From: a virus
Length of the DNA: 22,351 bases
Virus record (IMG/VR): IMGVR_UViG_3300025096_000150
Coordinates: 1-22,351 of that record
Strand: one strand, 5' to 3'
Of this stretch, positions 1,336 to 19,958 are shown in pieces. Made by a program: the position numbers and the translations under genes. The notes below the pieces were generated by a model. The model ran no database searches, was not told where the DNA came from, and saw only the letters and a program-made list of their open reading frames with translations. Positions within the stretch are counted from its first letter, which is position 1. Every line of letters starts with the position of its first letter.

Positions 1336-2520
1336 ATGTCACATAAAAAGAAACCAATACCTAACGAAATTGGTAACAACTTTTATAAATCAGGTTGGAA
1401 ACCAGGTATAGAAGTTAATGATTTAACAGGTATCGGTGAGATTACTCACGTTGGAACAGACCCAGATTTTAAGAGTAAGTATGACGAAATCTTACAAGAA
1501 TGGGGATTTGACCCTAAAAAATACGAAATAGAAGGTGCTGTAAAGGTATCATCATGGAATACACAGCTAAAAGGAGGACATGTTGAGACTTTTCATGCTT
1601 TTAAAGGCATTGTTAGGAAGAAAAAGCCTGGACATGACAAGTATTTTAAAGAATTATTAAAAAAAGCATCTAAAAAACCACCTTTACAAACAAAAATGTA
1701 TGGTGGAGACACAGCTTTCATGTTTTTTATGTCAGATTGGCAGGTTGGAAAGAGTGATTACGGTGTTGAAGCCATGTTGAATCGTTATGAAATAGCTTTA
1801 CAAGATGCAGTTGCACGTATTAAACAACTAAGAAAAATTGGTGTTGCAATAGATGAGGTACATTTAGTGGGAATGGGAGACCTCACAGAAAATTGTAGTA
1901 TGAATTACTTTGATAGCCAACCATTTAATGTTGAACTTTCTTTGATGGAACAATATGCACTAGCTAGAAATATGATATTTAATACTGTTGAAACTTTCTT
2001 ACCTTTAGTAGATAAAATTATTTTGACAGGGGTCCCAGGAAATCATGGTGAAATGACAAGAAGTGGTAAAGGGCAGGTTCTAACATCTCGCTTAGATAAC
2101 TCAGATACAATGCACCTAGAGATAATGAAAGAAATATTTAATGCTAATAAAGAAAGGTTTAAAAAAGTTAAAGTTGAAATACCTGAAGGCTTTCACTTTT
2201 CTACTACCGTTAAAGGCATTAGTTGTTCTTATACTCATGGTCATATGTCAGGTGGACCAGGCGGTAATCCTGAAAACAAGATAGAAAATTGGTGGAAGGG
2301 ACAAATGTATGGTTTCCTTCCTGCAGGAGATAGTAAAATTTTAGTGACTGCTCATTACCACCACTTCAGAGCCAAGCAACAAGGAGATAGGACTTGGTTT
2401 CAATGTGGAAGTTTAGATAAGAGTATAGATTTTACAGAGAGAACAGGTCTTTGGTCCCATCCAGGGGTGTTGACCTTTACTATTAATGCTAAAGGTTGGG
2501 ATAACTTAAAGATATTGTGA
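1336..2520 (+). CDS. Calcineurin-like metallophosphoesterase (phage exonuclease-like)
   Basis: This 394-residue protein carries the metallophosphoesterase motifs in order: SDWQVG at about 133-138 (motif I, with Gln where the usual D-x-H has His), GMGDLTE at 179-185, GVPGNHGE at 232-239, THGH at 300-303 and TAHYHH at 338-343. These bind two divalent metals. Phage members of this fold, common in actinophages, are often annotated as phosphatases or Mre11-like DNA exonucleases; the substrate here is unknown. Residues 1-120 are an extra N-terminal region rich in Lys. A strong ribosome-binding site (AAAGGAGGG) precedes the ATG. It is the last gene of the left rightward cluster and meets the leftward operon with almost no gap. 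Confidence 0.8.
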   Translation: MSHKKKPIPNEIGNNFYKSGWKPGIEVNDLTGIGEITHVGTDPDFKSKYDEILQEWGFDPKKYEIEGAVKVSSWNTQLKGGHVETFHAFKGIVRKKKPGHDKYFKELLKKASKKPPLQTKMYGGDTAFMFFMSDWQVGKSDYGVEAMLNRYEIALQDAVARIKQLRKIGVAIDEVHLVGMGDLTENCSMNYFDSQPFNVELSLMEQYALARNMIFNTVETFLPLVDKIILTGVPGNHGEMTRSGKGQVLTSRLDNSDTMHLEIMKEIFNANKERFKKVKVEIPEGFHFSTTVKGISCSYTHGHMSGGPGGNPENKIENWWKGQMYGFLPAGDSKILVTAHYHHFRAKQQGDRTWFQCGSLDKSIDFTERTGLWSHPGVLTFTINAKGWDNLKIL

Positions 2521-3455: not shown

Positions 3456-4381
3456 TAGCTAACCTTATCATTCCAATTAGTAATAATTTCACTAGCTTGT
3501 GTCCCTGTTAGGTTTCCATCTCCATAGATTGCTTTAAGTTCTTTAACACTATCTGCGTCAAGTTTATCTTGTGCTTTTCTCATAATGTCATTAACCCATT
3601 TCATTTGACCTTCACTAGCAGGATTTTCTCCTCCATAATTGCTCATATCTCCACCTCCTTCTTCAATCTCTTCTGTTTCAAATACTTCATTTACATTATT
3701 AATATTACCTGTTGTTCCTTGATACATCTGCTCAAATTCATCAAGAAATTGAGTCATCATATCACTAGACCATTTCTCTACATCTTCCATGAATCCATCT
3801 TCATCAACAAGTCTTGAGTAAACAGTTGCCTGAATTTCCTTGCGTTGCTTTTCATCACTACAAACTTCTTGCATAACATGATTCATTTGCTCTGCATTTT
3901 TCTTATCTTTCCCTGTAGGTGTCTTAGGCTCTGATACCATTTCATCAGCTACCTTTTCCATCTTTGCTTTTTCTTCTTCAGTAGGTTGATTCTCTTTTTT
4001 ACGCATATCAACTTTTTCTACTTTGATATTATCGTCTTTAAATTTTTGAGTCTTAGTCATTTCCTGTATAGATGGGCGTTTTTTACCACTACCTTGATAC
4101 ATCCAATTAGCTAAAGCTCTACCGATAGCAGAAGTTTCACAATTTTCAACCCATGAAGTATTATTTACATAAGCATTACCTTGTCCTTTAGTTTCTTCTG
4201 CTATGCCAGTTGATACTGGGTTTACATCATTAATATCTTTATAAACTAAAGCTCTGATAACAATTACTTTTGCGTCCTCTGAAGTGTAGGTTGGTTCTGT
4301 TTCAATTCTTCCGTTTGGATTATCTTTCCAAAACTTAACTAACCTATCCTCTACATTTTCGTACTCATCTTGCCAAGCCAT
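3455..4381 (-). CDS. Candidate single-strand annealing/recombination protein
   Basis: This 308-residue protein has an N-terminal domain (1-100) with the string IVIRALVYKD (about 40-49), an STGIAEETKGQ turn, and WVENCETSAIGRALANW (77-93). The 'NxETSAIGRAL' helix is typical of phage ERF/RecT-like ssDNA-annealing proteins and of related proteins in actinophages. A low-complexity charged linker (about 105-250) follows, then a C-terminal helical module (ASEGQMKWVNDIM...) of the kind often appended to phage recombination proteins. It would coat or anneal single-stranded DNA during phage recombination or replication. The assignment rests on motif resemblance only. It starts with ATG in a TAATG overlap behind GGAGG. 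Confidence 0.55.
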   Translation of the reverse strand: MAWQDEYENVEDRLVKFWKDNPNGRIETEPTYTSEDAKVIVIRALVYKDINDVNPVSTGIAEETKGQGNAYVNNTSWVENCETSAIGRALANWMYQGSGKKRPSIQEMTKTQKFKDDNIKVEKVDMRKKENQPTEEEKAKMEKVADEMVSEPKTPTGKDKKNAEQMNHVMQEVCSDEKQRKEIQATVYSRLVDEDGFMEDVEKWSSDMMTQFLDEFEQMYQGTTGNINNVNEVFETEEIEEGGGDMSNYGGENPASEGQMKWVNDIMRKAQDKLDADSVKELKAIYGDGNLTGTQASEIITNWNDKVS

Positions 4382-4632
4382 TACTTATCCTCCTTTGACA
4401 ATATCCTATAAACTCTTTGTCTTGTTATATTAAAAACTTTTGCAACTGCTGACACAGACCAACCAATGTCTATTAGAAATTCCATAAGTTTTTTCCTTTC
4501 ACTTGTAACTTGTATTCTTTCTTTTTTATTATCTACAATTTCTTTGTTTATAAAATCACAAGTTAATTTAATTATTGAATCAGATGAGTTTTCATTTAAT
4601 TCTTTACCATATATTTTTACTTCTTTAACCAC
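4381..4632 (-). CDS. Small helix-turn-helix DNA-binding protein
   Basis: This is an 83-residue protein. The C-terminal residues 58-78 read GWSVSAVAKVFNITRQRVYRI, a clear helix-turn-helix resembling Sin/MerR/Hin-like resolvase HTHs (V..AKVFNITRQRVYR). The N-terminal half has no recognised domain. It is the first gene after the 4633-4854 structured gap. Start: an in-frame GTG at 4632 is the only candidate after an in-frame stop; the AGGAGG at 4636-4641 lies only 3 bases from it, unusually close. It is probably a regulator of this operon or an accessory to the annealing protein that follows. Confidence 0.65.
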   Translation of the reverse strand: MVKEVKIYGKELNENSSDSIIKLTCDFINKEIVDNKKERIQVTSERKKLMEFLIDIGWSVSAVAKVFNITRQRVYRILSKEDK

Positions 4633-6175: not shown

Positions 6176-6292
6176 TTATTCTTCTAACAATCCAACTAAT
6201 TCTGCTTTACTATGTAATTGCATACACATAGAACATATACCATTAGTCATACTAATTCTTGGATAACTTTCTTCACATAATCTACATTCCAT
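6176..6292 (-). CDS. 38-aa zinc-ribbon-like protein
   Basis: The protein has two Cys-x-x-Cys pairs, C3/C6 (MECRLCEE) and C20/C23 (GICSMCMQ), with 13 residues between them: a minimal zinc-ribbon. The remainder is an acidic helix (KAELVGLLEE). Its ATG overlaps the SGNH gene's stop (TAATG), so it is translationally coupled to it. Function unknown; it is one of three tiny Cys-pair proteins in this operon. Confidence 0.65.
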   Translation of the reverse strand: MECRLCEESYPRISMTNGICSMCMQLHSKAELVGLLEE

Positions 6293-7137
6293 TAGATACC
6301 TTTCAGTTCTTTAAAGGCGTTGTTGTACCATAACCAATTAAATATTTGCTTACCTATTCGTTTAGCACCTTTATCATTTGGCTCAATATCGTTGTAGTAG
6401 CAAGTTTCGTCCATTACATTTCTTGTATCAACTACTTCTACATAATCTAAATCACTTGCTAAACGATATAATCTATCGTTCCACATTGATATTACAGTTT
6501 CAACTATATCTTCAATTCCTTGAAATTGGCTGTTGTCGTATGCTGGGTTTCCGTCATAAACAGTTAACAGCATAAACTTTCTGCCTTTTTTCTTTAGTTT
6601 TCCAATAACTGTTTTGTAAGCACTCAAATATTTGTCTAATTCTCTATTTAATAGTGCTAACATTTCGTTAGTGTCAACTTGTTTTGATAATAAAGGTAAA
6701 GCACCTAATAAATCGTTTCCACCTGCTGAGATAACAACATACTCTGAGTTGTCGTTTACATCTTTGCAACTATCAAGCACATTATATATTGTGTATCCGT
6801 CCACAGTTTGGTCGTTTACTAGCTCTTCCTTATCCTTTTTACTAATTCCTTGTATTTGGATATTATCTAACATAAAGTCAATAGTTGTCTTATTTGACTT
6901 TGTGTAAGAATCACAATCTAAAATACTATCTCCTAAAAAAGTTATTTTTGCTTTTTCGTTTATAGTTCTAATAGAATTGAAGTTTCCAAAACTATTCATT
7001 AGTTTTATATCCTCATTATCAAATTTATTATAGTTAATTTCGTTACTTGGTCGTAAATTTTGAACTAATCCGTTTTCGTCTAGTTCGTATTGACTTCCAC
7101 TCCACTCATCAACAAATAATTCATTATTATCTGACAA
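6292..7137 (-). CDS. SGNH/GDSL-like hydrolase
   Basis: Residue numbers here count from the GTG at 7191; subtract 18 for the start chosen here. The protein shows block I ITFLGDSILD (GDS at 87-89), block III VISAGGNDLLG (GGND at 157-160) and a block V-like NDIEPNDKG (267-275). These are the Ser, Gly/Asn and Asp positions of SGNH hydrolases (esterases, acetylhydrolases). In block V the usual D-x-x-H reads D-I-E-P, with no His at the expected place. There is no signal peptide. Start: TTG at 7137 has AGAGG five bases upstream, while the more distal GTG at 7191 has no ribosome-binding site and lies in a predicted RNA helix. The substrate may be a cell-surface or nucleotide-linked ester; unknown. 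Confidence 0.75.
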   Translation of the reverse strand: MSDNNELFVDEWSGSQYELDENGLVQNLRPSNEINYNKFDNEDIKLMNSFGNFNSIRTINEKAKITFLGDSILDCDSYTKSNKTTIDFMLDNIQIQGISKKDKEELVNDQTVDGYTIYNVLDSCKDVNDNSEYVVISAGGNDLLGALPLLSKQVDTNEMLALLNRELDKYLSAYKTVIGKLKKKGRKFMLLTVYDGNPAYDNSQFQGIEDIVETVISMWNDRLYRLASDLDYVEVVDTRNVMDETCYYNDIEPNDKGAKRIGKQIFNWLWYNNAFKELKGI

Positions 7138-7164
7138 TTTTTCCTCTTTTCTTTTACTTAACCT

Positions 7165-7380
7165 GCTATCAATAGATAGCTTGTAACACACAAGGAGAAC
7201 TCTGCTTTAATTTTCAACTTGCAAGTTGTTATGGTTATTTAGAGTATTCTTATGTGCTACAAGCTACCTACCGTTTTCAGTCGTAAGACCAACAGGGCTG
7301 TAATTACTTACTCTTACTCACGATAGATAACTTTTTTATCTGTCTTTCATATTATTAAATATAACATCTTGTCGTTATAT
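7165..7380 (-). promoter_or_regulatory. Structured leader with a 21-bp strand-specific helix
   Basis: The gap between the 65-aa gene and the SGNH gene is filled with pairing sequence. TGTGCTACAAGCTACCTA (7253-7270) is complementary to 7173-7190. In minus-strand RNA all 18 positions pair, two as G-U wobbles, and pairing extends to 7273/7170; in plus-strand RNA these wobbles become A-C mismatches. ACUCU/AGAGU (7241-7245 with 7199-7203) adds an inner helix. The top of the hairpin holds a 14-base palindrome (7215-7228). A short hairpin GCTATC/GATAGC (7165-7180) competes with the long one. Further hairpins: GTAAGA/TCTTAC (7283-7288, 7312-7317), AGATAA/TTATCT (7325-7341), ATATAAC/GTTATAT (7359-7380). 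Probably a cis-acting RNA; class not recognised. Confidence 0.6.
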
Positions 7381-7852: not shown

Positions 7853-7882
7853 ATTATAGGCATATCTTAAATATATTGTCAA
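7853..7882 (-). promoter_or_regulatory. Consensus sigma70-type promoter of leftward operon
   Basis: On the minus strand TTGACA (7877-7882) and TATAAT (7853-7858) are separated by 18 bases; both hexamers match the bacterial consensus exactly. The predicted transcript would start near 7846, about 23 bases before the first ATG at 7823, with a ribosome-binding site between. This is the best promoter in the window and implies the leftward genes are read by host RNA polymerase early in infection. Confidence 0.8.
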
Positions 7883-7945: not shown

Positions 7946-8128
7946 ATGAAAATAAAATGGTTAGTGAATAATAATTTATCTTGCGTAGATAAAGATGACA
8001 CTTGTTATAAAAATACTTATTGGAAGTGTGAAGTAGATGAAGAAGAAAATATAATTAGAGTTGTTAGTGATTTACAGGCTTGTAAAAAACACCTAAGAGA
8101 AAATGGATTGGTTATTAAGAAAGGGTAA
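7946..8128 (+). CDS. Hypothetical protein, 60 aa
   Basis: Unrecognised. MKIKWLVNNNLSCVDKDDTCYKNTYWKCEV opens with a WLVNNNL strand and three Cys (C13, C20, C28) that might bind metal or form disulphides; a helix (LQACKKHLREN) follows. It is the first of three short rightward genes, with GAGGTAAATA before the ATG. The next gene starts 3 bases after its stop. Confidence 0.65.
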   Translation: MKIKWLVNNNLSCVDKDDTCYKNTYWKCEVDEEENIIRVVSDLQACKKHLRENGLVIKKG

Positions 8129-8367: not shown

Positions 8368-8523
8368 ATGGCTAAGAATAAAGAAGATATTACTCTTGAG
8401 GAATTGACACCTAGCGAGATTAGGTTAAATAAATTAAGAGAAATAGCTGAAAAAGTACAAGAAAATGAGGAGAGACAGAAAGAAATTAATCAAGCTCTTG
8501 ATACTTTAAAAAGACTATTGTAA
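8368..8523 (+). CDS. Small coiled-coil protein, 51 aa
   Basis: This short frame encodes a protein that is almost entirely helix: IRLNKLREIAEKVQENEERQ followed by KEINQALDTLKRLL, with heptad-like Leu/Ile spacing. GTAGG lies 5 bases before the ATG. It ends the rightward mini-operon; its stop is the first base pair of an inverted repeat and a strong terminator follows. Function unknown. Confidence 0.6.
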   Translation: MAKNKEDITLEELTPSEIRLNKLREIAEKVQENEERQKEINQALDTLKRLL

Positions 8524-8547: not shown

Positions 8548-8551
8548 CTAG

Positions 8552-8607
8552 AAAGCCCTGCTTAGTTACTTTTGCACTCTCAATTAAAACTAAGTGGGGT
8601 TTTCTTA
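8552..8607 (+). terminator. Rho-independent terminator
   Basis: AAAGCCCTGCTTAGTT (8552-8567) pairs with AACTAAGTGGGGTTT (8588 to about 8603): sixteen pairs with three G-U wobbles that work only in plus-strand RNA, followed by TTTTCTT. The loop is about 20 bases. It closes the 7946-8523 mini-operon and separates it from the non-coding block downstream. Confidence 0.75.
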
Positions 8608-8865
8608 TGCCTATTTTATCTGGATTTCAACTGCATCTGTTGTTCTGGGATACAAGTTTAACTGATTATCCCCTGTTCTCAATCAAACTAGGTACATTTC
8701 TATACCATATCTAGTGCAATCACACACACATACTATATATTGTGTGGTATATACTGGATATTCTTCTGGTGGCTAGGCAGTAACTGTGCCATCTTTCACA
8801 TGGCAGGGTTCAATGTGGCGCGGTCTCCTTCATGTAGTAGGTCCCTTAAGAATATGCTGTTAACA

Positions 8866-8902
8866 GGTACTATATATAGCGGTACTATATGTTGTAGGTA
8901 CC
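8866..8902 (+). repeat. Triple GGTAC repeat inside the non-coding block
   Basis: GGTACTATAT occurs at 8866-8875 and again at 8881-8890, and GGTACC at 8897-8902, at steps of 15 and 16 bases. The last copy is self-complementary and can pair with either earlier copy, so alternate hairpins are possible. It may be a protein-binding array or part of the RNA fold. Confidence 0.45.
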
Positions 8903-9234
8903 TCTTATATGGCTTTTTTATGTTTGCTTTTCATTTAAGCAAGTAAAGATAATGAGTACTTCTTACCCTGTGTCATCCCTCCCAAACCGATAACAAATCT
9001 ATTTATGACTTATTTTATATTATGAAGTAATAGGCTTTAACCCTAGTTATGATGGTCTAGCTAGTCCACTTTATTGATGTTCTTATCAGATATTCTCTTC
9101 CTAAGAGCTAGAAAAATATCCTATTTGTACGATTTAATAACTTGTATCTTAACAGAAAACATATTAAAATCAAACTAACTAAACTTTTAGGATTCCTTTC
9201 CTTTGTTTAGCCTCCTTTCAGTACGATAATCCAT

Positions 9235-9341
9235 CCTCTCGCAAGAGAGGGTGACTCTAAAATTGGAGGTGACCAAGTTTATTTTGCTAGGCAACTAACA
9301 AAATATAACGCAGGTTAAAACCCTGCCACCTCCCTTTAGAG
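9235..9341 (+). ncRNA. tRNA/tmRNA-like three-way junction with GNRA hairpin
   Basis: CCTCTC-GCAA-GAGAGG forms a 6-bp hairpin with a GNRA tetraloop (9235-9250). Then CTCTAAA (9255-9261) pairs with TTTAGAG (9335-9341), and GGAGGTG (9265-9271) pairs with CACCTCC (9327-9333). Inside are a long arm (9277-9309: GTT-TATTTTG/CAAAATA-AAC with a TAG-GCAA-CTA tip, again a GNRA loop) and a 5-bp arm GCAGG/CCTGC with the 7-base loop TTAAAAC (9310-9326). The 5-bp/7-loop arm abuts the 7-bp stem with no gap, exactly as the T-arm abuts the acceptor in tRNA, and keeps T at loop position 1 and A at 5. No D-arm, anticodon arm or CCA is present, so it is not a normal tRNA. Confidence 0.6.
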
Positions 9342-9393
9342 ATACCTTAAGTAATAAGAAAATTTTTTTTACAGCCTATGTTATAGTATTTAT

Positions 9394-9459
9394 ATGCCTT
9401 ATACAAAAACAGGAAAAAAGAAAAGCTACTCTTCTAAAAGAAAACCTAAGAGAAAGTAA
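9394..9459 (+). CDS. 21-aa highly basic micro-ORF before terminase
   Basis: ATG at 9394 opens a 21-residue peptide (MPYTKTGKKKSYSSKRK and on), with more than half Lys/Arg/Ser and a basic end. It stops 4 bases before the terminase ATG, which would allow coupled translation. It has no clear ribosome-binding site; TATAGT at 9382-9387 could be a -10 element that would make the message nearly leaderless. Short basic peptides of this type are not rare near phage structural genes, but expression is unproven. Confidence 0.4.
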   Translation: MPYTKTGKKKSYSSKRKPKRK

Positions 9460-9463
9460 CTTA

Positions 9464-11395
9464 ATGAATGACAAGCGAAGAATCTGCTACGCAGCAGGTT
9501 GCAAACGTATGCTTCCAACAGGGAGGAGGAAATTTTGCAGCGACAGATGTTCTAACAGAATACAGATGCAGAAGAAGAGAGCTGCTAAACTGGGGAAAGA
9601 GTGGCAACAGGATGAAGAAACACTTAATATACCTAGCGAGGTTGAAAAGAAAAACGTTCAAAGCCGTAGAGGTACGGTCTATAATGATATTGTTGAGTCA
9701 GGTCTTGCACAAGATATTCTTGATAAGAAAAATACCATTGCAGATGTGGCAAGACTTCTTGAAACAACGCCAGGTGCAGTATCAATGGCATACTCAGCAT
9801 TCCTGGAAGATAAACAAATCAAACAAGCCCAAGACACTTGGGAGCTTCCGCCTGTTGCATCCGAAACTCTTAAAGACTTCTCTAAGTTTAGAGATAGATA
9901 CTTCTTAACCGAACAAGGATTACCATACGAAACTCCCAAATTTCATTTAAAGTGGATAGATTCACTTTTAGAAGCATTAGACGAAGGTGGGCAACAAATG
10001 ATATTGTCTCCTCCACGACACGGCAAGACAGAACTGTTAATACATTTCACAGTATGGTTAATATGCAAAAATCCAAATATAAGAATTTTATGGGTAGGTG
10101 GAAATGAAGAGATTTCAAAGAACAGCGTTGGTGCTGTGCTTGACACTCTGGAAAACAATGAACTTCTTGTTGAGGAAATTTGTGGACCTGGTAGAAGTTT
10201 TAAGCCTACGTCTCGAACTGGTAAGACCTGGACTCAAAACCAATTTACCGTGGCTACTCGTACTGTGTCTGGTATTAAATCACCTACGATTGTTGGGTTG
10301 GGAAGAGGGGGAAAGATACTTTCAAGAGATTGTGACCTCATTATCTGTGATGATGTCGAGGACCACAGTTCTACTATGCAACCTTCTTCACGAGAGAACA
10401 CTAGAAATTGGTGGACAACTACATTGTCAAGTCGTAAAGAAGACCATACTGCCGTAATTGTAATAGGTTCAAGACAACACCATGATGACTTATATCATCA
10501 CTTGTTAGATAACGAATCTTGGAAAACAACAGTTGAAGAAGCACATGATACAGGATGTACATTACCTGATTGGAATGAAGATGAACATCAAGACTGTATG
10601 TTATGGAAAGGTAAAAGAAGTTTTAATTGGTTAATGGATAGAAAAAGAGCTGCGGAAACTACAGGTGGTAGAGCCATCTATGAAATGGTATATCTTAATG
10701 TAGCTATGCCTGATGGACTTTCTTTATTTGATAGAGAAGAGATTGAAATGTGTAGAAACCAAAGAAGAGATATAGGACACATTCCACCTCATACTCAACT
10801 TATTGCAGGATTGGACCCTGCTTCAACAGGCTACCAAGCTGCGTTTTTATGGGCTTATGAAAAAGGAAATAACATAATGTATATGGTGGATATGGATAAT
10901 AACCTTGGTGGAGGTATCCCTCAAGCATTACATGTTATAAAAGATTGGTGGCAGAAATATAATTGTTCTCATTGGGTTATAGAGGAAAACGGTTTTCAAA
11001 AAGCTATTAGACAAGATAGAAGTATTAGAGAGTTTGCATCTCAACATGGAGTATTTTTAGAGGGACATGAAACTTATGCAAATAAATTTGACCCTATCTA
11101 TGGAGTTACTGCTATGAGACCTCTGTACCAAGAACAACTTATAGACTTACCCTACCAAACATTAAATGCACAAGAAAAAGTAAATCTTTTAACAAGTCAG
11201 TTAGTTTACTTTTCTAGTGCTAAAAATAAATCAAAGACAGTAGGTACAAAGACCGACATAGTTATGGCTAGTTGGTTCCCTATGAGAGCAGTAAGAAGGT
11301 TACAAAAAGAACGTCTTGCAGAACTAGGTACTGACTACAATCCAAGCTATACTAATTATGAAACAAGTAAGCTAGATAACGATATTTGGAGATAA
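9464..11395 (+). CDS. terL: Terminase large subunit with N-terminal zinc finger
   Basis: This 643-residue packaging motor ATPase/nuclease has three parts. Residues 8-29 hold Cys8-x4-Cys13-x11-Cys25-x3-Cys29 (ICYAAGC, KFCSDRC), a small zinc finger. Residues 70-115 look like a helix-turn-helix (TIADVARLLETTPGAVSMAY). The ATPase has Walker A SPPRHGKTE at 182-190 and Walker B LIICDDVED at 292-300. The RNase H-like nuclease has AGLDPAS (D451), VIEENGFQ (E507/E508) and KTDIVMASW (D598). It cuts and pumps phage DNA into proheads at the portal. No separate small terminase is seen beside it, so the N-terminal finger/HTH may recognise DNA. No strong ribosome-binding site is visible; coupling with the 21-aa micro-ORF is possible. 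Confidence 0.93.
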   Translation: MNDKRRICYAAGCKRMLPTGRRKFCSDRCSNRIQMQKKRAAKLGKEWQQDEETLNIPSEVEKKNVQSRRGTVYNDIVESGLAQDILDKKNTIADVARLLETTPGAVSMAYSAFLEDKQIKQAQDTWELPPVASETLKDFSKFRDRYFLTEQGLPYETPKFHLKWIDSLLEALDEGGQQMILSPPRHGKTELLIHFTVWLICKNPNIRILWVGGNEEISKNSVGAVLDTLENNELLVEEICGPGRSFKPTSRTGKTWTQNQFTVATRTVSGIKSPTIVGLGRGGKILSRDCDLIICDDVEDHSSTMQPSSRENTRNWWTTTLSSRKEDHTAVIVIGSRQHHDDLYHHLLDNESWKTTVEEAHDTGCTLPDWNEDEHQDCMLWKGKRSFNWLMDRKRAAETTGGRAIYEMVYLNVAMPDGLSLFDREEIEMCRNQRRDIGHIPPHTQLIAGLDPASTGYQAAFLWAYEKGNNIMYMVDMDNNLGGGIPQALHVIKDWWQKYNCSHWVIEENGFQKAIRQDRSIREFASQHGVFLEGHETYANKFDPIYGVTAMRPLYQEQLIDLPYQTLNAQEKVNLLTSQLVYFSSAKNKSKTVGTKTDIVMASWFPMRAVRRLQKERLAELGTDYNPSYTNYETSKLDNDIWR

Positions 11396-13364: not shown

Positions 13365-13737
13365 CAGAGGTAGAAAAAATACTGCATTAAATGAAGCTAC
13401 TGATATGACAGGTGGTGGAGCTTTTGCAGACATTGTTGCACCTCCAAGAAAAGAAGGCGACCCAACAGGACAATCAAAAGCATTAGATGCACAAGCAGGA
13501 GCTATAAGTCCAACTGGAGGTCAAATGTCTCCAGGTGTACCACCACCAGGAATACCTTCTCCATTAAATATTGGAGCAGGAACACAATATCCTAATGAAC
13601 CTATAACTACAGGGGTTTCTATAGGAATGGGAGATAGTGGTCCACAACCTGTACAAACAAAAACTGTAGAAAATTTTATATTAGAAGCAAAGGCTGTATT
13701 TCCAGACCCAATATGGGATGAACTACTTGGAGCATAA
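13348..13737 (+). CDS. Gly/Pro-rich structural-region protein, 129 aa
   Basis: A basic N-terminus (MANKYNRGRKNTALNE) is followed by a long Gly/Pro/Ala/Thr-rich disordered middle (about 25-105) and a C-terminal helix (TVENFILEAKAVFPDPIW). It overlaps the previous gene by 17 bases, and its stop overlaps the next start (TAATG). The low-complexity middle could be a linker between virion proteins; a scaffold or accessory role is inference only. Confidence 0.65.
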   Translation: MANKYNRGRKNTALNEATDMTGGGAFADIVAPPRKEGDPTGQSKALDAQAGAISPTGGQMSPGVPPPGIPSPLNIGAGTQYPNEPITTGVSIGMGDSGPQPVQTKTVENFILEAKAVFPDPIWDELLGA

Positions 13738-16700
13738 TGGAATACAGATTAAAATTCTATTCTCCTTCTCTGGTTAGAGAGTTTATAGCAGAAGAAAATA
13801 CAGCTAATTTAAATGAAAGATTACAGTTTAGAAGAAATATAAGTCCAGATTTAGCAGAGAGTATTGCAAGTATATCAAGGACATATCCTAATTTAGATAA
13901 AAGAGCTGTTGTTTATAGTGGTTTAATGGGCTTACAAGATGATGATTCTACATTATTAGATTTATCACAAAAACAACAAAAAGCTATGGAGAAAAGTCAA
14001 AGAAGTATAAGACCAACATCTACATCTTTCTGGAAAAGAGGAACACAATTAGGTTTCTTAGCACTAGATGCACCATTTCAAAACATATCTCAAAATTTTA
14101 AATCTACTGTATATGCAGCACAACAAACACAAACTCCAGTTTCTAAAGCTGTTTTTGGAACTTTAGCAGGTTCAATATTGCCAGGAGAAGCAATGAGTGA
14201 TGCTGTTAGAGAATCTATGTTTAGCAAACAATTTTCTGATACATGGAAACAAACAAAAGAATCTTATGGACCTACTGAATTTAGAAGAGCTAGAGATGCA
14301 ATGAAAGCAGGAGAACCTTTAAATTTAGGAACAGGTATTGTTCCACAATCAGTAAAATTAGAAGATACAGATGAATATAACAGACAAATTAAACTTGGTG
14401 AATCACCAACAACTGCATATAAAGTAGCAGAAAATAAATACGGAACACCTATTACAGAGGAATTTAAAAAAGATGAATATAGATATAACTATGTAACACC
14501 TCAAGGAGAACACGTTCCTATATCTCCAGGTCGTGTTGTTGCAGGTCAATTTAGCAAAGAAGGAGATTTAAAATATGCAGTTACAAGTACTATTATTGAT
14601 GGAGCTTTTAGACTAGGAGCAGACCCAATTAACTTACTTTTAGGTTATGGTTCTGGTGTAAAAACTGCAGGACAAAAAATAGTTTCTAAAGCTGCAGTAG
14701 ATGATTTTCTAATAAAAAATCCTAAAACTATTGGTAGAGCATTAAAAAGTATGACTCTTGGAAAAAAAGGAAAAGATGCTAGAAAATTTATGTTTGGTAA
14801 AACTGCAGAAGATGTACTTAAATCTAAATGGGGTGATGATTTCTTAGATGCTTTAGTAGAGAACGATAGTATATCAAGATTAAGAGACATACCTTCTTTT
14901 AGAAAAGTAGATACTAGAGTTTTAGAATTGTTAGCTAGTGTAAAAAACAAAAATGCTATGAGAGAAATTGTAGAAAGCATGTTAACAAAAGGAGATTTAT
15001 CAAAATTAGCATCAGCACCATACACAAGTCAATTTGTTGGGAAAGAATTATTAGAAGCACTTCCTGTATCTAAAGTAAATAAATTACCTATGAGAAAAAG
15101 TGTTACAGGAGAGTTAGCAGGAGGTTTAGCTAAAAAATTTAAAAAACTAGGACCAACAGATATTGCACCAATAAGAAGAGGTGTGGTTCCTACAACACTA
15201 ACACTTGGAGAAGAATTAATTAAAGGTATTGGAAAAATACCTGGAAGTCCTTTTAAAAAATTAGCAGGAGGTTTAATTGAAAAAGGAGATGACCCTTTTA
15301 GAGGAATTGTTGGAATGGGTGGGCAATTAAAATTTGCACTTCCAAGAGGAATTACAAGACTTTTTGATTTAGCACCAAGTAAATTTGCATCTTTAAGATA
15401 TGTACAGGAAACTGTAGAAAACATTGATGGACTTTTAACTACTATGGGAGAAAATGCTGAAACAAGAGATTATTTTATAGCTAAGATACTTACAACAAAA
15501 ACTGCAGATGATTTAATAGAAGTAGTATCAGAACTTAATGAAAAAATATTTCATTTTATTAAAAGAGAAAATCCAGATTACGGTAGATATTTAGACTCTC
15601 CAGAGGGTGCTGATGATGCTAAAAAAATATTAGAAGCACATAAACGTTTATCTTCGACAATACAAGAAAATAAAAAATATTTCTATGATGAAGATGGCTA
15701 TCCTATTATTTTTCCAGGAACAAAATTTAAATATCCTAGTTTAGAAACTACTCCTATAGCTGAAGCTGCAGGAAGAGAGACACCTAGGTTTCAACAAATT
15801 GCAGAACCTACAGCATTAGTAATGAGTCAATTTGCAGATAACTTTGTAGCATTAATGGATTACACACAACTTGCTACAGCAGGAAATAAATATAGAAAAT
15901 TAGTTCCTAAAGAAGCTAAAGGATTAAATAAAGCACTATATGGTTGGAACTCTGAAAAAGAATCTATAACTAAAAAAATAGTAGATACAGGAAAATTTCC
16001 TAAAACTGCATTTAAAGATAGTAATTATAGAGGGTCAACTCCTGAATTAGCATCTGCTACTTTAGCTGAATATGTATATAGTGACGTATTTATGCAAAAA
16101 GTTTTAAAACCTGGATGGATGTTAAGACTTGCTTTAGCTGTTCGTGTACCAGGTGAAGAAGCAGTTCGTACTGCTGTATATGGTGGTCCATCTGTATTTA
16201 CACATCCTTTAGAGTTATTATCTTTAAAATTTAATAATCCTTTTTCAAAAAAACAAACAATACAACTTATGGGAAGTATGGGAGAAGATTTTTTTGCAAC
16301 AACAATTAGAGGAGATGAGATAAGTAAAATTGCTGAAATGACAGGAACTCCTGCAATGCAAGATTCAGTAAAAAATTTAACGTATGATGAAATAGAAAGA
16401 GTACTTAAATTTAAAAGATTAAATGTTAATCCGTCAGGAATTGTTGGAGATTCGTATTTAGCTTCTTATATTAAAGATGTTGATACCACAATAGATTTTC
16501 AATTAAAAGAAATTAAAGGTGGATTAAAAAAATTAAAGAAACAAAAAGTAACTCCAGAAGATATAGAAGAATCTGCAAGGTTTTTAGGTTATGAAATAAA
16601 TAGATTAAAAGATGTAGTTCAAGTACGTGCATTTAATAACGTGAGTAGAGTTTCTACAGGACAATTAGACTTTCAAGCAGGTAATGGTATAGCTGTAGGA

Positions 16701-19700
16701 ATAAATAAAAATCTTGAAAAAAGTTTTGAATTTTCAACAGAAAAAGAATTACAAGAAATATTACAAGGATATATGCAGGAACCAGATGTATTAAAAGCAT
16801 TACAAAAAGAAAGTCACGGATTAATAACAGATGTAACAGGTAACAAAATAAATTTAAATGTTGGAATATCTAAAAAAGAATTAGTAAGAGGAACAAAAGA
16901 AGAATTAATAGATGCTTTAGCTTTGGCTATTAAAGGACAGCAAGAGTATGTATATTTAACTCGTTCAATAATAGATACAATAGATTTAGATAATGGATTA
17001 TGGGATGTAATTGAAAGTTCAGGAGACGTGTATAAATTAAAAGTTCATAAGTTACTTGATGATGAAGATTCTATAACTTTTAATACTCAAGTAGCAAGAG
17101 AAGTAATGGAATATATGTTTGAAGAAAATTTTAAGACAGCAAAATTAATAACTTCTAAAAAAGGTGGATTTGCACAAGCTGCACCAGATGGTTCATTTTT
17201 TAATGTTGACCCTTATTATTTAGAATCACAGGCAGAGAATACTTTAATGCAAACATTTAGAACAGGTAAAAGAAGTTCAGATGAAGAGATATACCACATG
17301 GCAGACAAATTAAGAAACGGAGAAATTACAGAAGAATTTTGGACAGGTTTTATAGGTGAAATGATGAATTATTCAAAAGACCCTGCATTTATTATAGTTG
17401 CAAGAGATGGTGTAGAAGAAGCTGTTAAATACTTTACAGAAACTAGACATGGTAAAAAATATATACAAGATTTTATAAATTGGAGTGATGACCCAGGAAC
17501 TCGTGAAATGTTGTTAGATGAAGACAACTTAAGACTTTGGTTAGGTAATATTGAATGGGAAATAGGAAGATTGCAAGGTAATCCAACAAGAAAAGCAGTT
17601 AGTCAATTTACTGGTAATGAAATAAGATTAGAAAGTCAATTAAGAGAATTAATGACTAATGCTGAGGGTACTACTAAATATCCAGTATTTAGTGCAGACT
17701 TAACACAAGGTTCCCAATCTGTTAGAGAGTTTATAGCAAATGGTGGAGTAATTGATGGGGAAGATTTTAATGAATTAATTCAAAAATTTAGTATTAGTAG
17801 AAGAAATAAACCTGAACAAGCTCAAGCATTTAGAAATAAATTTAAAAAATCTTTTAAGGAAGATTTATACAATTTAGATATGGGACCAAAAAGAATAGCT
17901 TATAATACAAATTCTAATGTAACTCCTGATGGAAGATTAAAAGATGGAGCATATTCAAAATATGATGAGTTTTTATCTTTAGGATATAGTGTATTATTAC
18001 AAAAACCTTCAGATTGGTTAAATAGAGACCCATTTTTTAGATGGTCATTTTATACATTATCACAAGATATTATTCCTTTTATGACAAAAGAAGTTAGAGA
18101 TGAATTTTTAGTAGGTGCTAAACCTTGGATAGAAGGTAGTAGTTTGTGGGATGATGTAGTTAAAGCAGCAAACGTTGGTGAAGGTGAAAACTCTATAACA
18201 AGTCTTGAACAAGCTATGGAGATATTGAAATACCAAGCTATGGACGAAGTCAAGAACTTACTTTATTCAAGTAGTGATAGACATGTACTTTCTGACATTA
18301 TGGCTACTTATGTTCCATTTCCTGAAATATGGCAAGAGGTAGCAAAAACATGGGGTAAATTAGTATTAGAAAATCCTGCTAAATTTAACAGAACACGTAT
18401 AGCTATGGATGCAGGAAGAGAAGCTAAACCGTGGGATACTAATAATGCTTTTTTTGAAACAGACCCTGTTACAGGAGAATTAATGTTTAATTATATAGAT
18501 GTTATGAATGTTATGACGTTTGGTATGACAGCAATACCTGGTGCTTTAGGATTTAGACCTTTTCAAAGTGGAATGTTAGGAGAAGATTTAACAGAAGAAG
18601 GTGTAAGAGTAAAGCCACATGGTTTCTTAGAGGGATTAAACCTAGTATCTGCTAATGGATTTTCACCAGGATTTGGACCTGTTGTTACTATGCCACAAAA
18701 ATTCTTTACAAGATATAGAACATTCCCTAAATGGTTGAATGATTTTGTTTTAGGAAACTTTAATTCTCCAGGAGGAACAGCAGACCCTAGAGATGAATTG
18801 CCTGGATGGATGAAGAAGTTTTTTAAAACAACACCATTTGGTTCATTAAAATCAGACGAGATGGATGCTTCTTATGCTAAAACTGTAATGGATATATATA
18901 CTTTATATTATTATGCAGGGAAATGGGACCCTGAAGATGAACAATCTATGAAAGATGCTTTAATAGAAGCAGAACAAGCTGCAGCAACACATTGGAGAAT
19001 AAGAGGTTTAGCTCAATTTGCGTACCCTACAGCAATACAACCAAGATATGAATTACAAGATAAAAATGGAACTTGGTGGGCATTAACTGTTTTATCTGCA
19101 CAATATCAAAAAATGTTAGAAGCAAATGATTTTGATTATTTTATTACTACACAACAATTTGCAAATAGATATGGATTAAATCCAATACCGTTTAGACAAG
19201 CAACAGTTAAAAAAGAAGGTAGATTTCCTGTTAAAAAATCAGCTTATGCTTTCTGGTCTTTAAAAGAAAATAAAGAACTTATGGAGAGAAATCCATCTAC
19301 AGCTATTTATATACACATGGATACATGGGATGATGAATTTTCTTATGCTGCGTTTTTAGATGGTGCAGACCAATTAGAACCAGAACAATATCAAAAAGCT
19401 ATGAATCAAACATTAGCTCAATATGAATATCAAGAACAAAAAGAAATTCTTGAACGTGATAAAACTATCAAAAATGAAGGTGCTTTACAAAATGCAATTA
19501 CTGATAAAAGAATTGAAATAGAAGGAAGATATGGTGTTAAACTATTTGGAAATATTGGTATATCTGTTACGCAACCAGAATTTACACAATTAGTTCTTGA
19601 TTTTAGAAAATGGGAAAATGAACCTAGATTAAAAGCATCTCCTGAATATACACCTTTAAAGAAATATTTAGATAAAAGAGATGAAGCAATACGTGTTATG

Positions 19701-19958
19701 TTAAAAGGAGGAACATTTACAGTAGTAATTAATGGTGTAGAACAATCATACGAATCAAGAGGTGTGCCTGGAAAAAGGGATGTTATACTTAACGGTAAGC
19801 ATGAAGACACTAAGCAGTTGAGAATATTGCTTGATTCTTATGCTAGAGATTTAGCTAAAGATTATTCAGATACTAATTTTATCGATATATACCTCGGTAA
19901 CTTTTGGTCTGAATTAGACAATAGAAGATATTATGACGAGGAAGAGTTAGAAGAATGA
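13737..19958 (+). CDS. Giant virion-associated protein, 2073 aa
   Basis: This is the largest gene, and its family is not identified. It lies between the portal cluster and the 521-aa/lysozyme-like pair. Visible features: a basic N-terminal 100 residues; hydrophobic Gly/Ala segments near 135-155 and 285-310; a segment KPGWMLRLALAVRVPGEEAVR near 795 (split over its predicted helix); charged helices near 920-960 (IKGGLKKLKKQKV); and an aromatic, Trp-rich C-terminal third from about 1420 (DPFFRWSFYTLSQDIIPF and later WALTVLSAQYQKML), ending in an acidic tail (DEEELEE). No N4-type RNA polymerase or transglycosylase motif set was found. Best guess: an internal or ejected virion protein, or large structural platform, on the basis of size and position. 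Confidence 0.7.
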   Translation: MEYRLKFYSPSLVREFIAEENTANLNERLQFRRNISPDLAESIASISRTYPNLDKRAVVYSGLMGLQDDDSTLLDLSQKQQKAMEKSQRSIRPTSTSFWKRGTQLGFLALDAPFQNISQNFKSTVYAAQQTQTPVSKAVFGTLAGSILPGEAMSDAVRESMFSKQFSDTWKQTKESYGPTEFRRARDAMKAGEPLNLGTGIVPQSVKLEDTDEYNRQIKLGESPTTAYKVAENKYGTPITEEFKKDEYRYNYVTPQGEHVPISPGRVVAGQFSKEGDLKYAVTSTIIDGAFRLGADPINLLLGYGSGVKTAGQKIVSKAAVDDFLIKNPKTIGRALKSMTLGKKGKDARKFMFGKTAEDVLKSKWGDDFLDALVENDSISRLRDIPSFRKVDTRVLELLASVKNKNAMREIVESMLTKGDLSKLASAPYTSQFVGKELLEALPVSKVNKLPMRKSVTGELAGGLAKKFKKLGPTDIAPIRRGVVPTTLTLGEELIKGIGKIPGSPFKKLAGGLIEKGDDPFRGIVGMGGQLKFALPRGITRLFDLAPSKFASLRYVQETVENIDGLLTTMGENAETRDYFIAKILTTKTADDLIEVVSELNEKIFHFIKRENPDYGRYLDSPEGADDAKKILEAHKRLSSTIQENKKYFYDEDGYPIIFPGTKFKYPSLETTPIAEAAGRETPRFQQIAEPTALVMSQFADNFVALMDYTQLATAGNKYRKLVPKEAKGLNKALYGWNSEKESITKKIVDTGKFPKTAFKDSNYRGSTPELASATLAEYVYSDVFMQKVLKPGWMLRLALAVRVPGEEAVRTAVYGGPSVFTHPLELLSLKFNNPFSKKQTIQLMGSMGEDFFATTIRGDEISKIAEMTGTPAMQDSVKNLTYDEIERVLKFKRLNVNPSGIVGDSYLASYIKDVDTTIDFQLKEIKGGLKKLKKQKVTPEDIEESARFLGYEINRLKDVVQVRAFNNVSRVSTGQLDFQAGNGIAVGINKNLEKSFEFSTEKELQEILQGYMQEPDVLKALQKESHGLITDVTGNKINLNVGISKKELVRGTKEELIDALALAIKGQQEYVYLTRSIIDTIDLDNGLWDVIESSGDVYKLKVHKLLDDEDSITFNTQVAREVMEYMFEENFKTAKLITSKKGGFAQAAPDGSFFNVDPYYLESQAENTLMQTFRTGKRSSDEEIYHMADKLRNGEITEEFWTGFIGEMMNYSKDPAFIIVARDGVEEAVKYFTETRHGKKYIQDFINWSDDPGTREMLLDEDNLRLWLGNIEWEIGRLQGNPTRKAVSQFTGNEIRLESQLRELMTNAEGTTKYPVFSADLTQGSQSVREFIANGGVIDGEDFNELIQKFSISRRNKPEQAQAFRNKFKKSFKEDLYNLDMGPKRIAYNTNSNVTPDGRLKDGAYSKYDEFLSLGYSVLLQKPSDWLNRDPFFRWSFYTLSQDIIPFMTKEVRDEFLVGAKPWIEGSSLWDDVVKAANVGEGENSITSLEQAMEILKYQAMDEVKNLLYSSSDRHVLSDIMATYVPFPEIWQEVAKTWGKLVLENPAKFNRTRIAMDAGREAKPWDTNNAFFETDPVTGELMFNYIDVMNVMTFGMTAIPGALGFRPFQSGMLGEDLTEEGVRVKPHGFLEGLNLVSANGFSPGFGPVVTMPQKFFTRYRTFPKWLNDFVLGNFNSPGGTADPRDELPGWMKKFFKTTPFGSLKSDEMDASYAKTVMDIYTLYYYAGKWDPEDEQSMKDALIEAEQAAATHWRIRGLAQFAYPTAIQPRYELQDKNGTWWALTVLSAQYQKMLEANDFDYFITTQQFANRYGLNPIPFRQATVKKEGRFPVKKSAYAFWSLKENKELMERNPSTAIYIHMDTWDDEFSYAAFLDGADQLEPEQYQKAMNQTLAQYEYQEQKEILERDKTIKNEGALQNAITDKRIEIEGRYGVKLFGNIGISVTQPEFTQLVLDFRKWENEPRLKASPEYTPLKKYLDKRDEAIRVMLKGGTFTVVINGVEQSYESRGVPGKRDVILNGKHEDTKQLRILLDSYARDLAKDYSDTNFIDIYLGNFWSELDNRRYYDEEELEE

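Follow-up and report, generated by a model that had tools for sequence, protein, structure and literature searches.

To our knowledge, no function has been assigned to large phage RNAs of the kind of GOLLD and ROOL. For both, tRNAs are sometimes found inside or beside the RNA (PMC12286853). Translation-related RNAs offer further points of comparison. The marine phage Melnitz encodes a complete two-piece tmRNA of the ssrA type (PMC9004378), and the C-rich hairpin loops of RNAIII from Staphylococcus aureus bind Shine-Dalgarno sequences (PMC2837412). How does the locus described here relate to these systems? It lies in a viral record of 22,351 nucleotides, analysed at full length and called the window in the following, and consists of a non-coding element that is, with high confidence, a structured phage RNA.

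The block at 8605-9345 is preceded by an open reading frame (8368-8523) and followed by the terminase gene (9464-11395), each of them encoded on the plus strand; it lies between the early-gene terminator and the gene for DNA packaging. The long hairpin that opens Table 1 is the terminator of the preceding early operon and the upstream boundary of the element; the A/T tract at the other end is probably the terminator-like 3' end of the RNA. A coding reading was considered and rejected: the sole reading frame of at least 60 residues within the block (8740-8946, TTG start) has no match in PHROG or Pfam, and in 51 of 51 relatives stop codons interrupt every one of the three plus-strand frames across the conserved core. 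This bears out the initial annotation, which had noted the lack of any credible gene. A search of the block with ARAGORN called no tRNA or tmRNA gene.

Table 1 Features of the element, with positions in the window.
Feature	Position	Strand	Basis or remark
Long hairpin with T-rich end	8550-8607	+	z -5.7; terminator-like hairpin just before the element also in L022 and L065
Conserved 5' module	8655-8905	+	nhmmer match begins at 8655; alignments; common to subtypes A and B
Dyad ACTATATATTGT, consensus ACWAnATnTWGT	8732-8743		Enriched in elements
Conserved TGTTAA, then two tandem dyads	8858-8895		Dyads at 8869-8880 and 8884-8895, 15 bp apart
Structured core, 168 nt	8963-9130	+	51-sequence alignment; model R1, 155 bits, by construction
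Core helix H1	8973-8976/9022-9025	+	
Core helix H2	9027-9034/9042-9050	+	
Core helix H3	9056-9062/9106-9112	+	
Core helix H4	about 9089-9094/9115-9120	+	
CCUCCUUUC, exact anti-Shine-Dalgarno 9-mer	9211-9219	+	In 91 of 99 full elements
GCAA-capped hairpin CCUCUC-GCAA-GAGAGG	9235-9250	+	Covariation
Outer helix 9255-9261/9335-9341 closing the tRNA-like domain	9255-9341	+	Also in L002
tRNA-like domain	9265-9333	+	Descriptor search, folds
A-tract/T-tract	9359-9370	+	AAAAAATTTTTTTT after the last hairpin in relatives inspected

The surroundings hold some further features. Between the RNA and the terminase gene a very basic peptide of 22 residues is encoded (MPYTKTGKKKSYSSKRKPKRK, 9394-9463, plus strand), and similar short basic peptides precede the terminase in five relatives (L002, L022, L043, L045, L074). 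The leftward early genes have a perfect sigma-70 promoter (TTGACA, 18 nt, TATAAT) at 7853-7882 on the minus strand. A GDSL-type lipase/acylhydrolase-like protein (6292-7191, minus strand) scores just below the Pfam cut-off in the window and above it in the relative L373. The gene in portal position is followed by one for a protein of 2073 residues whose family is unassigned (13737-19958, plus strand); its counterpart in L373 has 2029 residues and no PHROG match.

Relatives were collected by a terminase search, which yielded 80 viral contigs, most of them with DNA homologous to the block, and by motif scans, which are biased toward sequences retaining the motif. Together they gave 353 loci, some contigs having been fetched twice, and the profile matched in 237 of these. 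Wherever a terminase is also present, in 201 of these matched loci, the element lies on its strand, 92-1938 nt before the gene, and every terminase locus that extends at least 3.5 kb upstream has the element. Homologues in which unrelated or coding sequence replaces the block were not seen; non-coding DNA is kept at the same place. The relatives, up to 44 kb long and with genes for an SU10-type capsid protein and an exonuclease, come from an environmental collection, and the group looks aquatic. Among the isolates in the phage collection the block is absent: a single 47-base match, at chance level, was rejected as a sign of an isolated phage with the same RNA. Two routes to a host were dropped as well. 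The conserved 19-base motif has 17 matches in bacterial genomes, none of them by nhmmer and their number of the same order as that estimated for chance, and no WhiB was found that would indicate an Actinobacterial host. In the attachment-site test no tyrosine integrase was seen in ten records, all possibly incomplete. A description of the element was not found in the literature searched, whose coverage leaves out most subscription journals.

Two subtypes can be distinguished. Subtype B, found in five terminase loci (L030, L059, L072, L073, L081) and further contigs, has the 5' module, the anti-Shine-Dalgarno (anti-SD) hairpin and the terminal A/T tract in common with subtype A. Its distinct, highly conserved middle (CUUUCUGCCCCUCGAUGGCAACUUUACUUG) is unrelated to the subtype A core, whose model R1 gave no credible match on subtype B, and is a candidate for a second structured RNA core.

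Turning to structure, the initial annotation had proposed a large ornate RNA on the basis of at least ten inverted repeats and two GCAA tetraloops. We count 13 inverted repeats, and both tetraloops are present (9241-9244 and 9291-9294). As for folding energy, 8609-9370 is more stable than each of 20 dinucleotide-shuffled versions per strand, with z -4.55 for the plus and -4.0 for the minus strand, so that a fold below shuffled sequence holds for the whole block, but most of the excess comes from the 3' end: in a sliding scan it lies in the 3' 200 bases, with z -7.0 for 9226-9362 against -2.4 for 8609-9225 alone. One earlier argument has to be given up. The G-U pair in the helix at 8707-8761 had been taken as evidence for the plus strand; this helix is stable in the window alone (z -3.1), and in 42 relatives the matching stretch, as the first half of the 5' module, shows neither excess stability (mean z 0.02) nor covariation, and hence a single G-U pair there is not strand evidence. 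A better indication comes from column pair 44-51 of the core, which occurs as AU (19), UA (13), UG (13) and GU (3) and never as A-C. Over the core helices 19 G-U cells stand against 8 A-C cells, at this column pair 16 against 0, and U-G pairs also occur in the tRNA-like arm of the relative L002. Judged from the alignments, these wobble pairs favour a plus-strand RNA.

The structured core carries much of the case. In the 51-sequence alignment 95.7% of the cells are able to pair, compared with 86.2% in shuffled alignments, and this signal is lost when the partner is slid by one to three columns. Both sides have changed in 14 of 27 pairs, giving 136 double-changed cells as opposed to 42.5 +/- 5.0 after shuffling. 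The helices were named from the same 51 sequences that were scored, which biases the slid control in favour of the structure; the double changes are therefore the stronger evidence. One pair of H2 (GC 34, CG 18) reaches E 0.005 in our own covariation test with a phylogenetic null. H3 and H4 probably interlock to form a pseudoknot, with H4 as the weaker helix. Outside the core, two pairs of the GCAA hairpin covary (9239-9246, E 1e-5; 9240-9245, E 2e-7), and 14 distinct arm pairs occur. Compensatory pairs are present in the core, the GCAA hairpin and the anti-SD hairpin of the homologues. Two observations count against the explanation favoured below: few pairs pass E 0.05 in single-pair tests, and by folding energy the core does not stand out (mean z +0.44). 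Covariation over the full length on one global alignment is likewise weak, with few pairs passing, because the variable parts align badly.

The 5' module presents a different picture. The dyad ACWAnATnTWGT occurs 3.93 times per kb in the elements and 0.043 times per kb outside, an enrichment of about 90-fold. Its positions 3/10 and 5/8 vary irrespective of pairing, which rules out an RNA stem and is as expected of a DNA site bound by a dimer. On these sequence grounds 8655-8905 is better read as a DNA control region than as structured RNA; since the dyads resemble protein-binding DNA sites, the RNA may start after them and would then be about 450 nt long. Of the proposed large ornate RNA the structured non-coding RNA stands, and its 5' third was overrated. 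GGGUUA in the 5' module and UAACCC in the core are complementary and form a candidate kissing pair, yet without covariation. Elsewhere in the window a small helix-turn-helix protein (HTH_7/HTH_23; 4381-4632, minus strand) is a candidate binder of the dyads.

Two parts of the element were absent from the initial annotation. The first is the anti-SD element CCUCCUUUC, which we take to be the sequence at the 3' end of 16S rRNA in many bacteria. In 60 distinct hairpins of relatives it is invariant within a loop of 15-16 nt, AGUUUCCUCCUUUCG or a close variant, on stems of at least 5 bp in which both sides change at four pair positions. A second copy often follows UUCAU, so that the whole is the complement of an entire start site. 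Two findings speak against the explanation favoured below: 8 of the 99 full elements are without the exact 9-mer, and the window has only one copy, which lies outside the canonical hairpin. The phage genes use AGGAGG start sites, which are possible targets; a search for target mRNAs found none, a further point against that explanation, and no sign of AGGAGG being avoided was seen in the phage's own genes. The exonuclease gene (1336-2520, plus strand) has a strong Shine-Dalgarno sequence (AAAGGAGG), which makes it a possible target of the anti-SD loop, and three relatives have one likewise before genes encoding 388-389 aa, which are probably the same gene. On the minus strand of many relatives a perfect Shine-Dalgarno sequence, GAAAGGAGG, stands 3-7 nt before the ATG of very short reading frames (MNKES, MNKELFFATYGSIIT and others; for example L043, about 8020-8070), an alternative reading of the anti-SD site that also weighs against the explanation favoured below.

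The second part is the tRNA-like domain, which combines an acceptor stem of 7 bp and a T arm of 5 bp with a 7-nt loop; a long GCAA-capped arm replaces the D and anticodon arms, and no CCA is encoded. Together with its outer helix (9254-9344) it folds with z -6.9, and it scores 18.8 bits with the Rfam tRNA model, whose cut-off is 29. A counterpart is found in L002, whose terminase is 92% identical to that of the window. There, 4699-4773 matches tmRNA (RF00023) with 43.4 bits and E 7e-16, the gathering cut-off being 47. The acceptor has G3-U70 and A73, a D stem is missing, a long P2-like arm is present, the T arm has a UUCAAUU loop, and 298 positions of RF00023, comprising the tag reading frame and the pseudoknots, are replaced by 9 nt. 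Given the score below gathering and the missing mRNA-like part, we call this domain tmRNA-like without assigning it to tmRNA. In the window the corresponding residues are A3-U70 and C73, and RF00023 finds no match; the copy has lost the L002 features that suggest alanine charging, which counts against the explanation favoured below. Each variant has its own relatives, L002 with L232, L376 (L002's own contig) and L377, the window with L378. L002 still has its domain next to a core of a different type; the two parts hence behave as independent modules.

What could such an RNA do? The conservation, the fixed position and strand, the compensatory pairs, the conserved loop and the tRNA-like fold are observed; transcription, the start site, the targets and each step of action are what we infer in the following. 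The element would be a plus-strand RNA gene with the dyad control region, then the pseudoknotted core, the anti-SD element and the GCAA hairpin; the 3' part would be formed, in the lineage of the window, by the tRNA-like domain, followed by the terminator. The RNA would be made during infection under a regulator binding the dyads and would act in trans on translation. In analogy to RNAIII with its C-rich loops, the exposed CCUCCUUUC may pair with Shine-Dalgarno sequences in mRNAs of the phage, the host or both, and so block or re-time their translation. The core might be a platform for proteins or a scaffold, and the tRNA-like domain, in the lineages of L002 and the window, might function in processing or protection of the 3' end or in contacts with factors that bind tRNA or tmRNA. 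This explanation is preferred because of the fixed strand and place, the compensatory changes, the plus-strand wobble and the terminators that the element has on both sides, and also because of the UUCAU-CCUCCUUUC copy, the AGGAGG start sites, the tmRNA-like domain of L002 and the precedent of RNAIII. Action on translation through the anti-SD loop, as an RNAIII-like phage riboregulator, is argued by analogy and put forward tentatively, at somewhat less than even confidence. It seems rather unlikely, though worth stating, that one phage RNA mimics both tmRNA in its tRNA-like domain and 16S rRNA in its tail and thereby seizes start sites or ribosome-rescue factors.

The strongest competing view regards the element as an ornate RNA of the GOLLD/ROOL type, abundant in infection and acting chiefly as a large and perhaps multimeric particle in which the anti-SD is a structural loop only. 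Phage origin, a length of up to about 750 nt, the pseudoknot, GNRA loops, conserved loops, exchangeable cores and a tRNA-like insert all agree with it; the molecule would however measure only about 450 nt if the 5' third is not RNA, and neither the GOLLD nor the ROOL model finds a sequence match. GOLLD (RF02032) gave none with cmscan, and the best score seen for it was 8.8 bits on the opposite strand at a cut-off of 150; ROOL (RF03087) gave none either, one of the ROOL-model searches being also silent on control genomes and proving little alone. At gathering score no Rfam family, including group I/II introns and riboswitches, matched the block in the window or in its relatives, and no match below threshold was credible for the whole RNA. 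A known Rfam family is thereby excluded. By the tests made the element is not a member of GOLLD, ROOL or tmRNA, and of the two options left by the initial annotation, GOLLD/ROOL or a new class, it is the new class that remains. An ornate particle appears doubtful, if conceivable.

A regulatory leader of the late operon, at which RNA polymerase is modified or terminates at the A/T tract and read-through leads to the terminase and structural genes, in the manner of put- or lambda 6S/Q-like antitermination RNA, would account for the constant position immediately ahead of the co-oriented late genes, for the terminator-like end and, as possible operators, for the 5' dyads. It is nevertheless unlikely: element and terminase can be separated by as much as 1.9 kb and by whole genes (in L043, for example, by one resembling DNA methyltransferases), several relatives show on inspection promoter-like sequence after the A/T tract, and neither a conserved anti-SD loop nor a tRNA-like domain would be expected. 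Less probable again is a replication origin with the dyads as initiator iterons, an A/T tract that unwinds and a transcript that primes, as ColE1 RNA II does. The tandem dyads are indeed confined to the locus with their strong enrichment, and in the five relatives examined the GC skew changes direction at the element, a turn that is confounded because gene direction turns there too; the 15-bp dyad spacing is not one helical turn, and the anti-SD loop and tRNA-like domain stay unexplained. That the locus is solely a DNA-level packaging or control site (cos/pac or an operator array), with hairpins that act in DNA or are incidental and with no functional RNA produced, is very improbable, for although it adjoins the terminase and its 5' module resembles protein-binding DNA, single pairs show several compensatory solutions, wobble follows the plus strand, GNRA loops sit on varying stems and L002 has a tmRNA-type fold.

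Returning to the structured phage RNA, its fixed place, the many homologues with two exchangeable cores and the anti-SD and tmRNA-like clue bring the function of a large phage RNA within direct experimental reach; the loop and the domain are a clue in the sequence itself that points to translation. With GOLLD and ROOL the element shares being a large structured, phage-borne non-coding RNA with pseudoknots, but it has no sequence or model similarity to them, and they are located in tRNA islands whereas the element is fixed beside the terminase and has an anti-SD loop. The likeness to RNAIII, a structured RNA with a C-rich hairpin loop complementary to Shine-Dalgarno sequences as in the 60 distinct hairpins of the relatives, is one of possible mode of action and not of descent, the element being a phage gene. 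With tmRNA it has only the tRNA-like part in common (acceptor, T arm, no D stem, P2) in L002, the window sharing the fold and aligning with L002; the mRNA-like domain of tmRNA with its tag reading frame and pseudoknots is represented by 9 nt, and CCA is not encoded. The literature searched describes complete phage tmRNAs and prophage ssrA fragments, and not the tRNA-like half of tmRNA alone in a phage. Melnitz encodes a complete tmRNA; here the tRNA-like part alone is joined to another RNA, and a phage seems to have retained no more than this part of tmRNA.
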